Below are positions 9,115-50,442 of a stretch of 64,000 bases of DNA, piece by piece. The translations under genes and the position numbers were made by a program. The notes below the pieces were generated by a model, which saw nothing but the letters and a program-made list of their open reading frames with translations, was not told the DNA's origin and ran no database searches. The DNA comes from Vreelandella piezotolerans. Lineage in GTDB: Bacteria > Pseudomonadota > Gammaproteobacteria > Pseudomonadales > Halomonadaceae. The stretch is from the NCBI RefSeq assembly GCF_012427705.1, contig NZ_CP048602.1:186001-250000 (forward strand). The letters are read 5' to 3'. The stretch's first letter is position 1; each line of letters begins with the position of its first letter.

Positions 9115-9807
9115 ATGGCTAAATTGTCTAAGCGCGCGAAAGTCATTCGCGAGAAAGTAGACCCGAACAAAGCGTACTCTCTGGAAGAAGCCGTTGCGCT
9201 ACTTTCCGAGCTGTCGACTGTCAAGTTCAAAGAGTCTCTGGATGTGGCGATCAACCTGGGTGTTGATCCGCGTAAATCCGATCAGGTCGTACGTGGCGCT
9301 ACCGTCATGCCTAACGGTACTGGTAAAGACGTTCGCGTAGCCGTCTTCACCCAAGGTGCCAATGCTGATGCGGCTAAAGAAGCCGGTGCTGACATCGTGG
9401 GTATGGACGATCTGGCTGAGCAAGTCAAAAAAGGCCAAATGGACTTCGACGTGGTCATCGCCTCTCCGGATGCGATGCGCGTTGTCGGTCAGTTGGGCCA
9501 AATTCTTGGTCCGCGTGGCCTGATGCCGAACCCGAAAGTAGGCACCGTGACGCCTGACGTGGCGACGGCGGTCAAAAATGCCAAAGCGGGTCAGGTGCGT
9601 TTCCGTACCGATAAGAACGGCATCATCCACACGACCCTAGGTAAAGTGGATTTTGACGCGGCGTCCGTTCAGGGCAACTTGGAAGCACTGGTAGCTGACC
9701 TGAAGAAGCTCAAGCCGAGCTCCTCCAAAGGCATCTACTTTAAGAAAATTACCCTGTCCACTACCATGGGCCCGGGTTTGACCATCGACCACTCTGCGCT
9801 GGTATAA
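9115..9807 (+). CDS. rplA: 50S ribosomal protein L1
   Basis: L1 forms the mobile L1 stalk at the E site and represses its own operon. The 230 residues start [19 protein letters not shown] and include the conserved [18 protein letters not shown] near residue 130 and [10 protein letters not shown] at the C-terminus. Coupled closely to rplK upstream; a long structured leader separates it from rplJ. Confidence 0.98.
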
Positions 9808-10105
9808 GCGAGTCGTCGGCAGGTTTTAGTAAGTACCGAGCAAGAACTTTGCGGTCCCTCGCTAGGCAGTCAGTCGAGCGAGGCGCCGTCAAAGACCGCA
9901 GGTGCCGCCTCGTCTTTTGAGACGGGGCGGCTTAATCGCCCTAGAGCGCCTGCGCAGATGGTGTGGCCGCCAGTTGGTTAACGCTTTTCGCAAGCCGCTT
10001 TCTGGTGAGCACCATCCCCCAAGGCTTCCAAGGCCAGCAGTATGCCTTGGAAGAGATGGTAACCACCGGAGCCTTGATGGGTTCCGGCACGAAGGAGTGA
10101 TCACT
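9808..10105 (+). promoter_or_regulatory. rplJ leader (L10 leader RNA)
   Basis: These 298 bases hold no gene. They contain strong structure, including a 12-pair hairpin at 9904-9931 (GCCGCCTCGTCT with loop TTTG and AGACGGGGCGGC, one wobble). The position between rplA and rplJ matches the L10 leader, where the L10-L12 complex binds and blocks rplJ translation. The rplJ Shine-Dalgarno GAAGGAG lies at its end. Regulation is known from the family; it is not proven here. Confidence 0.7.
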
Positions 10106-46320: not shown

Positions 46321-46686
46321 ATGGCTCATCTGCTGTTTCGGTTGCGCCATGTGACCGATGAAGAGGCCATGGAAGTCCGCCAACTGCTGGAAGAACATGG
46401 TTTCGACGTGTACGAAACCCAGGCGGGCTTTTTCCGCCTGGGAGTTGATGCCATCTGGCTGCGCGACCCAGCACAGCAAGACGATGCCGAGGCGGTGCTG
46501 GCGCGTTACCAGGCCGAGCGATTAGCCAAGGTGCGCCGTGAACACGAAGAGGCGCTGGCGCGTGATGATGCCCCTACGCTGTGGCGACGCTTCATGGCCC
46601 ATCCGCTTCAAGTCACGCTAGTGATCGTGGCGGTGCTTATGATCGCTCTGCTGACCTTACTGCCGTTCGTAGGACTCGCCCGCTAA
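46321..46686 (+). CDS. DUF6164 family membrane protein
   Basis: A 121-residue protein with a soluble N-terminal part that resembles a small ferredoxin-like DUF2007/DUF6164 domain (MAHLLFRLRHVTDEEAMEVR, VYETQAGFFRLGVDAIWLRD) and one C-terminal membrane span at about residues 95-117. It starts two bases after gloA, so the two are co-transcribed. The function is unknown. Its stop codon overlaps that of the convergent cupin gene. Confidence 0.75.
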   Translation: MAHLLFRLRHVTDEEAMEVRQLLEEHGFDVYETQAGFFRLGVDAIWLRDPAQQDDAEAVLARYQAERLAKVRREHEEALARDDAPTLWRRFMAHPLQVTLVIVAVLMIALLTLLPFVGLAR

Positions 46687-47360
46687 ACGTCGCACAGCGC
46701 GTTAGATAGGTGTCCGCGTTTGACGTACATCATGACCCCTGAGGGTCCAGCGCTAAGCCGCGGGGCAGCCCCCGGGGGATAGCGGCACCAGCTACCTGCC
46801 GGGTACTCGGTGTCTGCGTCACGTAGCGAGCCCTCCAGTACGAACAGCTCCAAGCCGCCCGGCAGTGCCGGATAGTCGATAATGACCTCGCCTTCCCAAC
46901 GCTCTAGGCTGACGCGTTCATGTTGATAGGTGTGCAGCATTTTGTAGGTGATGCCTGGCCGACGGTCGGGCTGCCAGGGCAGGCGGTGGGCGGGAATGGC
47001 GAGTTGGAGCAGGTCGTTTTCATCGAACTGATGAAGTTTCACCAGGATCAGCGCACCCTCGTCGCCAATGCGCGGCGTGTGTCCCGTGCCGATGGGGTTG
47101 CGTAGATAGCTGCCCGCTGGGTAACGGCCATGCTCATCGGCAAACACGCCTTCGAGCACCAAAATTTCCTCACCGCCTTCGTGGGTATGGCGGCTGAACT
47201 GGCTGTTGGGCGCGTAGCGCACCAGGCTCGTGGCGCGGGCCACCTCATCGCCAATGCGATCCAGCATCATACGTTCGACACCTGCGCTAGGCGAGGCCAC
47301 CCAGTGATACTGTTCCGGCGTGACACAGGCAAAGTGGCTAAAGTCGGCGTTTAGGCGCAT
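46683..47360 (-). CDS. ChrR-like bicupin protein
   Basis: A 225-residue cytoplasmic protein with two cupin halves, similar to ChrR-type cupins. The first half carries likely metal ligands (FSRHTHEGGEEILVLEGVFA near residue 50-70). The second half (GGLELFVLEGSLRDADTEYP) keeps the fold but lacks the histidines. I use the ATG at 47360; 27 more in-frame codons upstream are not cupin-like. No ECF sigma factor gene is adjacent, so an anti-sigma role is not supported; dioxygenase or acetylacetonase-like activity is an alternative. Confidence 0.8.
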   Translation of the reverse strand: MRLNADFSHFACVTPEQYHWVASPSAGVERMMLDRIGDEVARATSLVRYAPNSQFSRHTHEGGEEILVLEGVFADEHGRYPAGSYLRNPIGTGHTPRIGDEGALILVKLHQFDENDLLQLAIPAHRLPWQPDRRPGITYKMLHTYQHERVSLERWEGEVIIDYPALPGGLELFVLEGSLRDADTEYPAGSWCRYPPGAAPRLSAGPSGVMMYVKRGHLSNALCDV

Positions 47361-47492: not shown

Positions 47493-48602
<1,110 letters not shown>

Positions 48603-48645: not shown

Positions 48646-49536
48646 CTAGTGAGAATGCTCCATCGCCAGCGGCGTGGTTTTACGGCGAAGCTTGGCGGCC
48701 AAACTGTGGTAACGGCCAAACAGCGCCGAAAATAAATACGCCGCCCCGGCCAGCAAGATAATGCTCGGGCCTGATGGCGTGTCCAAATGGAACGACAGCA
48801 GCAGCCCGCCGGTGCTGGCCAGCATCGCCAACACCACGGCAATCCCCATCAATCCTTCCAAGCGCTTGCTCCAAAACCGTGCCGCCGTGGCGGGTAGCAT
48901 CATCAAGCCAACGGCCATCAGCGTGCCCAGTGTTTGGAAGCCAGCGGTCAAGTTGAGCACTAGCAGCCCTAAAAAGACGCTATGTACCCAGCTACTGCGA
49001 CGGTGCTGACCGCGCAAAAATAGCGGGTCCAAACACTCCACCACCAAGGCGCGGAAAATGATCGCCAGGGTGATGACGATCAGTGTGCTGATCGACGCAA
49101 TCAACAGCAGCGCCGTGGAGTTGATCGCCAAAATGGAGCCAAACAGTACGTGGGTTAAATCCACGCTGCTGCCCCCCATGGAGATCAGCATGACCCCAGC
49201 GGCCAGGGAAATGATGAAAAAGCTCGCCATGGCGGCATCTTCCCGCTGGCCACCCATTTTCGAGACCGCTCCCGCCAGCAAGGCCACCATCACCCCAAAT
49301 AGCACGCCACCCACGCTCATCACCGGTAGCGAAAAGCCCGCCAGCAAAAAGCCCAGCGCCACGCCGGGCAGAATTGCATGGGCCATGGCATCGCCAATCA
49401 GACTCATGCCACGCAGCACCAAAAACACCCCCAGCGGCGGGGCGGCCAGGGAGAGCGCGAGCCCGCCGACCACGGCGCGGCGCATGAAACCGTAATCGAA
49501 CGGGCTGACGAACCAGGTATTAAGCAGTTCCAGCAT
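48646..49536 (-). CDS. znuB: Zinc ABC transporter permease
   Basis: A 296-residue inner-membrane ABC-3 family permease with about eight or nine spans. Family features include GVFLVLRGMSLIGDAMAHAI near residue 35 and ALVVECLDPLFL in the coupling helix region, then QTLGTLMAVGLMMLPATAAR. The ATG at 49536 has GGGAGGG upstream; 14 more codons of open frame are ignored. It overlaps znuC by 17 bases and precedes znuA by 43. Confidence 0.94.
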   Translation of the reverse strand: MLELLNTWFVSPFDYGFMRRAVVGGLALSLAAPPLGVFLVLRGMSLIGDAMAHAILPGVALGFLLAGFSLPVMSVGGVLFGVMVALLAGAVSKMGGQREDAAMASFFIISLAAGVMLISMGGSSVDLTHVLFGSILAINSTALLLIASISTLIVITLAIIFRALVVECLDPLFLRGQHRRSSWVHSVFLGLLVLNLTAGFQTLGTLMAVGLMMLPATAARFWSKRLEGLMGIAVVLAMLASTGGLLLSFHLDTPSGPSIILLAGAAYLFSALFGRYHSLAAKLRRKTTPLAMEHSH

Positions 49537-50254
49537 GACGCCCTCCCAGCGTAAACGGCACCACTTGGGCGGGTGCATGCTGCTGATTGAGCGCGCTGGG
49601 GGCGACCCAGCGGCCGTGGCCAGCGCTCAGCATCAATACCTCATCGGCCAGGCGACGCAGGTGATCCATATCGTGCAGTACGATGATGATCGTGACGCCG
49701 TCGTCGGCCATTTGGCGCAGAATGCGAATCAAGATATCCACCGTGTCGCTGTCCACGTTGGCAAACGGCTCATCCAATAGCAGCAGTTCTGCCTCTTGCA
49801 TCAGCGTTCGCCCGATCAGCGCCCGCTGGCGCTGGCCACCGGACAGCTCGCCCAGGGGGCGGTGCGCCAAGTGAGAAATGCCCAAGCGCGCCATGATCTC
49901 ACGGCCCTTGCGGTAATGGGCGGCACAGTACCCTTTCAGCGCCCCGTGGCTTGGCCAACTGCCAGTCATCACCAGCTCTTCCACGCTCATCGGAAAGGTC
50001 AGATCCAGCGCTAACTGCTGGGGTAGCCAAGCGCGGCGAGCGTTATCCACCGTACACACCACCTTGCCACTAATGGGGCGCAGTTCGCCCATGATGGCCT
50101 GGATCAGCGTGCTTTTACCGGCCCCGTTCGCGCCGATGAGCGCGGTAATCGCACCGGGTTTGATATCGCCATCCACATGTTCGAGCACCGTACGGCGACC
50201 CTGAGCCAAATGCAGATCGTGAAGCTGCAAGCGCGATGAAGAACGCTCGCTCAT
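49520..50254 (-). CDS. znuC: Zinc ABC transporter ATPase
   Basis: A 244-residue ABC ATPase with Walker A GANGAGKST near residue 41, Q-loop LPQQLALDLTFPMSVEELV, signature LSGGQRQRALIGR and Walker B LLLLDEPFANVD, H-loop VLHDMDHL. The ATG at 50254 overlaps the stop of a 49-codon gene (ATGA). An in-frame ATG seven codons earlier (50275) and a much longer open frame exist but fit the coupling less well. The Gln/His-containing C-terminal end is short. It would power zinc import at the inner membrane. Confidence 0.92.
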   Translation of the reverse strand: MSERSSSRLQLHDLHLAQGRRTVLEHVDGDIKPGAITALIGANGAGKSTLIQAIMGELRPISGKVVCTVDNARRAWLPQQLALDLTFPMSVEELVMTGSWPSHGALKGYCAAHYRKGREIMARLGISHLAHRPLGELSGGQRQRALIGRTLMQEAELLLLDEPFANVDSDTVDILIRILRQMADDGVTIIIVLHDMDHLRRLADEVLMLSAGHGRWVAPSALNQQHAPAQVVPFTLGGRHAGTA

Positions 50255-50400
50255 AGCGGCCACCCGCTTGCCCATACCACTAGCCCCCACAGGGCCATCA
50301 GCGGCAGCGCCATCAGCCCAAGCCGCTTCGTGGCCGACAAGGACATCAGCGAAAAATGACAAGGACCTTCCTTATTGTGGCGATGCATGTGCTCACTCAT
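50251..50400 (-). CDS. 49-residue His-rich single-span membrane peptide, first gene of the zinc operon
   Basis: Read on the minus strand from ATG 50398-50400 to TGA 50251-50253. I do not recognise a family. The N-terminus MSEHMHRHNKEGPCHF carries four His and one Cys, a possible metal site; a linker with Lys-Arg follows, then one membrane span LGLMALPLMALWGLVVWASG and a short end. GTGAGGT lies seven bases before the start. Its stop overlaps the znuC start by ATGA, implying coupled translation, and a candidate Zur operator lies 27-42 bases upstream. It may be a small partner or sensor of the importer, or simply a leader peptide that sets znuC translation; neither is shown. Confidence 0.65.
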   Translation of the reverse strand: MSEHMHRHNKEGPCHFSLMSLSATKRLGLMALPLMALWGLVVWASGWPL

Positions 50401-50426
50401 CGAGCGACCTCACTTACCAATAAATA

Positions 50427-50442
50427 AGTTATAACATAACGT
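50427..50442 (-). promoter_or_regulatory. Candidate Zur operator
   Basis: GTTAT-AAC-ATAAC with further symmetric flanks resembles the AT-rich Zur palindromes of gammaproteobacteria (core GTTATA...TATAAC). It lies just upstream of the first gene of the zinc operon. No zur gene is in the window. Confidence 0.6.

Follow-up and report, generated by a model that had tools for sequence, protein, structure and literature searches.

The described zinc importer closest to the one examined here is AztABCD of Paracoccus denitrificans, which the available text of two reports places under Zur control (PMC5387054, PMC7731109) and in which, according to the accessible part of a third, AztD is a periplasmic chaperone (PMC7463823). 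Zinc ABC permeases designated ZniCBA are described in Klebsiella and Rhizobium leguminosarum, their binding proteins having been compared with AztC; in the available portions of these papers, the R. leguminosarum zniCBA operon has a Zur motif 153 bp before the ATPase gene, a distance that leaves room for a small gene, and no small protein is mentioned (PMC10797113, PMC12183173). The same name is used for a different system, an efflux system, in the accessible part of PMC11647595. Small genes that open operons are often missed in annotation.

Here we analyse a 64,000-nucleotide stretch of the genome of Vreelandella piezotolerans (contig NZ_CP048602.1, positions 186,001 to 250,000 of the forward strand), referred to below as the window, in which an original prediction had placed a His-rich 49-residue membrane peptide at the head of a zinc importer operon. 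We combine annotation of the operon, conservation of the peptide frame, and the distribution of the peptide among ATPase genes, and we offer a candidate role for its product.

Results and discussion

Organization of the operon

Genes of the operon in the window are arranged in the order peptide-ATPase-permease-binding protein, and comprise the following features:

50427-50441, no strand assigned: Zur-type palindrome, recognized by the Zur consensus
50408..50411, minus strand: Shine-Dalgarno-like GAGG of the peptide, 8-11 nt 5' of the ATG
50251..50400, minus strand: peptide of 49 residues with a single membrane span, encoded by the operon's first gene (49 codons and a TGA stop)
50356..50391, minus strand: His/Cys-rich N-terminal segment (His4, His6, His8, Cys14, His15), predicted to be cytosolic from the K/R bias
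50263..50322, minus strand: likely membrane span, approximately residues 27-46 by our own placing (AF2 helix, 14-44)
50251..50254, minus strand: ATGA overlap of peptide stop and ATPase start
49520..50254, minus strand: AztA-like ATPase, 244 aa (NCBIfam AztA, 196.3 bits; cut-off 220)
48646..49536, minus strand: AztB-like permease (NCBIfam AztB, 260.6 bits, cut-off 280; ZnuB, 89.8, cut-off 284)
47493..48602, minus strand: AztC-like substrate-binding protein (NCBIfam AztC, 275.9 bits, cut-off 350; ZnuA, 93.1, cut-off 268)

The frame at 50251-50400 (minus strand) translates as MSEHMHRHNKEGPCHFSLMSLSATKRLGLMALPLMALWGLVVWASGWPL, with its four His and single Cys all within residues 1-16. Frame, Shine-Dalgarno sequence, ATGA overlap, His and Cys residues, and single span were all found where the original prediction had placed them.

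The best NCBIfam models of the ATPase, permease, and binding protein are AztA, AztB, and AztC, respectively, all scoring below their equivalog cut-offs. AztB and AztC lead the next-best models by 120 and 60 bits, and the runners-up for the ATPase are MntA (154.4 bits, cut-off 400) and ZnuC (101.9 bits, cut-off 306). Since the ZnuC, ZnuB, and ZnuA models fall far below the Azt models for all three proteins, identity with ZnuABC was rejected; of the predicted arrangement peptide-znuC-znuB-znuA, the gene order holds and the Znu names have to be replaced. An AztA score is weak evidence when taken alone, given that the distant ABC ATPases scanned with NCBIfam (20, out of 21 such loci) all scored 176-218 bits against AztA as well, and the label 'Azt-like' therefore rests on all three genes jointly. 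A manganese-type model ranked first in 19 of those 20, AztA doing so in one (L209). We class the importer of the window as belonging to an Azt-like branch, and not as AztABC in the strict equivalog sense. A very long loop rich in His, Asp, and Glu marks its binding protein (47493-48602, minus strand), the C-terminal end of which is an HD-repeat tail. The operon contains no aztD, and the gene 3' of aztC (46683-47357, minus strand) encodes a ChrR-like cupin with a weak match to the anti-sigma factor ChrR (43.4 bits, cut-off 124.5).

The candidate Zur box of the original prediction was borne out upstream of related operons. Of 86 distinct upstream regions from the Halomonadaceae, 84 have a Zur-type box matching at least 10 of 13 positions, against shuffle means of 6.3-8.4; because a score of 10 is also the 99th percentile of the shuffles for many regions, more weight attaches to the constant place of the box, approximately 40 nt 5' of the start. 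In the wider set of loci described below, a box matching 10 or more of 12 positions occurred in 56 of 94 loci, where shuffles predict 1.0. Where the peptide is present (43 loci), the box ends 93-304 nt 5' of AztA; where it is absent (13 loci), the distance is 18-43 nt in all but L314, which has 162 nt. The peptide is therefore the first gene after the box. The operon carries a Zur-type box at its promoter, at which binding of Zur is predicted. A promoter-like match (10 of 12; 0.2 expected) was also noted at 50497-50470, upstream of the box.

Conservation of the peptide in the Halomonadaceae

The peptide was matched at E <= 0.01 in 164 of 201 genomes and 15 of 24 genera of the family to which the window belongs (Halomonas, Vreelandella, Billgrantia and kin), counts that are possibly low given that the search scored part of the first-look candidates in each genome. 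Within the genus itself, 36 of 37 genomes have the peptide at E <= 3e-15, the sole miss (G018) being an 88% complete genome. The peptide lies directly 5' of the ATPase gene in 86 loci (46 from searches and 40 by place), all chosen for a matching peptide and some sharing a genome. The motif PCHFSLMSL is present in 87 of 87 peptides of these loci, which were found by tblastn with no requirement for the motif.

Bias towards synonymous change, which had been named as a further check, was likewise found. Mean diversity of the nine PCHFSLMSL codons was 0.09, 0.00, and 0.43 at positions 1, 2, and 3 in 136 non-identical core sequences gathered at 180 places, for which invariance of the motif is built in because the collecting pattern demanded it; the ratio of mean pN to mean pS was 0.34 (3893 of 9180 pairs, with pS 0.05-0.6). 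A Shine-Dalgarno-like 4-mer precedes 81 of 87 peptide starts, compared with 80 of 1131 control windows. The frame is a real gene, the amino acids of which are under constraint. We found no Rfam match at E <= 1 and no unusual RNA fold (z = -0.53). A metal-responsive RNA leader or riboswitch, which the original prediction had entertained, is thus disfavoured by the ordinary fold, the Rfam result, and conservation at the amino-acid level.

Among the Halomonadaceae genera without a direct match (one to three genomes examined per genus), a divergent form of the peptide occurs where an AztA-like ATPase exists (g24, g36, g38, g43), and no peptide was found in genera with other ATPases only (g29, g31) or in those with no ATPase at E <= 1e-30 (g26, g28, g45). 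One genome (G102, locus L075) has two copies of the peptide gene, at 2305-2445 and 9724-9864, separated by a long stretch of repeats that are approximately 70% alike; the first copy precedes an AztA-like gene that appears broken.

Distribution beyond the Halomonadaceae

Profile searches outside the genus returned short single-span peptides preceding ATPase genes. Judged by these matches and their gene context, the family extends beyond the Halomonadaceae: related single-span proteins of approximately 33-86 residues, for some of which we chose the start codon, open Azt-type operons in alpha- and gammaproteobacteria. Two cautions apply: short hydrophobic families are prone to over-collection, and the iterated profile covered regions near ATPase starts only. 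When 369 genomes of the class were searched with a profile, all nine matches at E <= 2e-4 adjoined an AztA-like gene (seven checked directly, the other two being Halomonadaceae loci of the 86-locus set). Weaker matches in L103, L104, L108, and L218 (E 0.0023 for L218) do have an AztA-like gene; another 16 (L105-L107, L109-L113, L217, L219-L225; E 3.9e-4 to 0.0097) have none in the available stretch and were dismissed as chance. The window's peptide is assigned to the family by its size, Arg-to-Trp spacing, single span, and place directly 5' of an AztA-like gene. In the wider family, 62 of 80 distinct loci have an NTGA in which the peptide stop and the AztA start overlap.

The reverse test, with the ATPase of L213 as query, identified 26 ATPase loci at E <= 1e-40 in the 369 class genomes. 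The peptide is present in 11 of the 12 loci at E <= 1e-70 (the miss being L234) and in both loci of the window's own genus (E 3e-44 and 6e-43); it was found in none of the 12 remaining loci (E 9e-49 to 6e-41). By this score the ATPase of the window, with E 3e-44, falls within the range of the peptide-less loci and is no nearer, so that model ranking is what sets it apart. At phylum level (398 genomes, AztA-like loci at E <= 1e-55), 58 of 68 loci have the peptide just 5' of the ATPase gene. None was found in 21 more distant ABC ATPase loci, a total that includes loci from the Halomonadaceae genera without a direct match and for which the 185-bit line between 'AztA-like' (scores >= 191) and 'distant' (<= 170) was set after the result had been seen. 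The peptide tracks a subset of metal ATPases; as the distant ATPases are mostly nearest to manganese-type models and not to ZnuC, canonical ZnuC loci are hardly sampled in this comparison.

Matches occurred in 39 named plasmid records, 16 of which were examined. The peptide is present in seven (Skermanella, Azospirillum, two Thioclava, Methylobacterium, Paracoccaceae bacterium La 6, and Neorhizobium) and was not found in nine (two Paracoccus, Shinella, Qingshengfaniella, Klebsiella, Sinorhizobium, Mesorhizobium, Bradyrhizobium, and Devosia). Annotation of the seven gives 'hypothetical protein' in three, lists no gene in two (from incomplete tables), and has no table for the stretch in two. Genes for DUF1007 proteins occur in the vicinity of the azt operon in L282, which lacks the peptide, and in L333, which has it.

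Peptide and AztA phylogeny

A midpoint-rooted AztA tree of 102 rows was built from a quick search, leaving out rows with duplicate AztA and rows below 185 bits and including few Halomonadaceae loci (two of the common type plus divergent ones). The peptide is present in 82 of the 85 rows outside one 17-row clade (SH-aLRT 98) and in none of the 17 inside it, which include five annotated aztABCD records. The three misses outside the clade are L331, on a long branch; L314, which by eye encodes a 30-residue version; and L234, which remains a miss. The window's own ATPase also sits on a long branch. A single loss in the AztABCD branch would be the simplest reading of this quick, midpoint-rooted tree.

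The N-terminal motif of AztB is FMQRAL in 16 of the 20 peptide-less rows (three R, one unread) and FMRRAL in 72 of 82 rows with it (two A, one Q, one K, six unread), a split that is no independent evidence because nearly all Q rows form one clade. Long His-rich C-terminal tails of AztA occur in eight rows with the peptide (e.g. L269, L287) and 11 without (e.g. L271, L274, L302). The peptide bears a His-rich tail in 19 rows, in none of which AztA has one too; this exclusion is not significant, as independence of the two tails would lead one to expect approximately 1.9 double cases in 82 rows.

Topology and the His-rich tail

Members of the family share a core of one Arg, approximately 11 residues, and a Trp within a single hydrophobic span, and most have a second Trp. 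Lys and Arg are in excess on the N side of the span in 77 of 80 members, tied in three, and reversed in none. By the positive-inside rule, such a bias indicates an N-in topology, which is therefore predicted for the peptide. AF2 modelled the window's peptide as one helix (residues 14-44, mean pLDDT 73.5) preceded by a low-confidence tail that is non-helical up to residue 13 (pLDDT 55-60 in the first 20 residues).

The His and Cys residues noted in the original prediction fail as a mark of the family, for a 38-residue relative in L102 has neither His nor Cys. Taking at least four His in 15 residues as the rule, a His-rich tail is present in 19 of 82 tree rows from six families (f1, f153, f239, f245, f255, f268), ten of the 19 falling in one f255 clade. 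The other 63 rows have no such tail, so zinc binding would be an add-on and not the shared core function, and the His/Cys tail of the window's peptide is best described as lineage-specific. That such tails recur nevertheless suggests cytosolic zinc binding where they occur.

Standing in databases and literature

The expectation of the original prediction that no described family would fit was upheld. Pfam gave no convincing family for the peptide (E <= 10) or for sets of 32 and 30 members (E <= 1), and NCBIfam none for the peptide (E <= 10) or 32 members (E <= 1), the weak and scattered matches having a best E of 0.026; a PDB sequence search with the peptide and family alignments found no relative. 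Where a name is given, among the 120 proteins listed out of 411 and in other listings, it is nearly always hypothetical or uncharacterized. The exceptions are P0060 ('DUF2946 domain-containing', UniRef), P0189 ('Cation transporter', UniRef), and P0193 (a zinc-transport binding-protein label), for all of which the Pfam column is empty. No description of the peptide was found in the accessible text of the literature on AztABCD and ZniCBA, a body of work in which subscription papers lay largely outside the search; such silence is no proof of absence. The family is apparently undescribed so far.

Proposed role of the peptide

Weighing these observations, we incline, with somewhat better than even confidence, to the reading that the peptide serves the Azt-type zinc ABC importer as a small accessory subunit with N-in topology; this importer class probably has an overlooked fourth part. 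Made first, from a transcript under the Zur-type box, and translationally coupled to AztA, the peptide would span the inner membrane, its N-terminus facing the cytosol, and its helix may pack against the AztB/AztA complex and stabilise or gate it. In the Halomonadaceae and several other lineages, the His tail (here also Cys) would probably bind zinc leaving the permease, and the zinc-bound tail could act as a hand-over site or as a feedback sensor on the ATPase. Association with the importer, zinc binding, and an effect on transport are predictions drawn from sequence and gene context. Counting against this reading, the clade of the annotated aztABCD operons, the kind worked on in Paracoccus, manages without the peptide.

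The same operon layout could be produced by a frame whose only task is to bring ribosomes to the ATPase gene, its product being functionless. The NTGA overlap in most loci (62 of 80) and the place of the peptide as first gene after the box are what such a coupling leader would have, and the available part of one report describes a small frame promoting transporter translation in mgtQ/mgtB (PMC8092293). The control scan of distant ATPases on AztA slightly lowered our confidence in an accessory subunit and raised that in a leader by still less. We regard the leader as unlikely all the same, because amino acids and not nucleotides are conserved; a span with fixed Arg and Trp is retained across classes, and the leader RNA has neither an unusual fold nor an Rfam match.

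Equally improbable, or a shade more so, is a stability or quality-control factor acting outside the working transporter, which would shield the permease from membrane proteases or guide it to them. A small single-span helix encoded first in the operon would suit such a factor, and a lineage with a stable permease could dispense with it, which would fit the peptide-less clade; it leaves the recurring His-rich tails unexplained, but nothing else speaks specifically against it. The tail might instead work at a distance from the importer, either influencing Zur or passing zinc on to some protein of the cytosol, for example a GTPase of the COG0523 type. Genes for GTP-binding proteins do lie near some operons (L281, L288), but GTPase genes are also near peptide-less operons, the checked scoring matches of unconditioned searches adjoin the ATPase gene, and many members have no His-rich tail; we give this explanation little credence.

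An extension of the accessory-subunit reading, which we put forward tentatively and think rather doubtful, is that Azt importers were originally four-part, that the cytosolic and often His-rich tail of the peptide reads zinc at the permease exit and gates the ATPase, and that the peptide was lost once, in the AztABCD branch. On such an origin, the peptide would have been overlooked because AztABCD, the branch that lost it, is the one studied at the bench. If the peptide is a subunit, a widespread class of zinc importers has an unrecognised component, reconstitutions and structures made from ATPase, permease, and binding protein alone are incomplete, and the His-rich tails offer a handle on zinc hand-over or on how an importer senses sufficiency.

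Comparison with known systems

AztABCD, as far as the available text describes it, resembles the window's system in Zur control and provides the nearest models for its ATPase, permease, and binding protein. It differs in that its five annotated records have no peptide, and in having AztD, where the window has the ChrR-like cupin gene 3' of aztC. ZnuABC is also a zinc ABC importer under Zur, but its models score far below the Azt models on the window's proteins. CbtB-type subunits are small His-containing membrane proteins of metal transporters; the peptide shares with them its small size, its His residues, its membrane span, and the neighbouring metal transporter genes, although neither it nor its relatives match such a family in Pfam. 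KdpF, CydX, AcrZ, and the LptC helix are small single-span accessories that each add one helix to a larger membrane complex and, although searches of Pfam, NCBIfam, and PDB gave no sequence relation to them, the peptide would work in the same manner.
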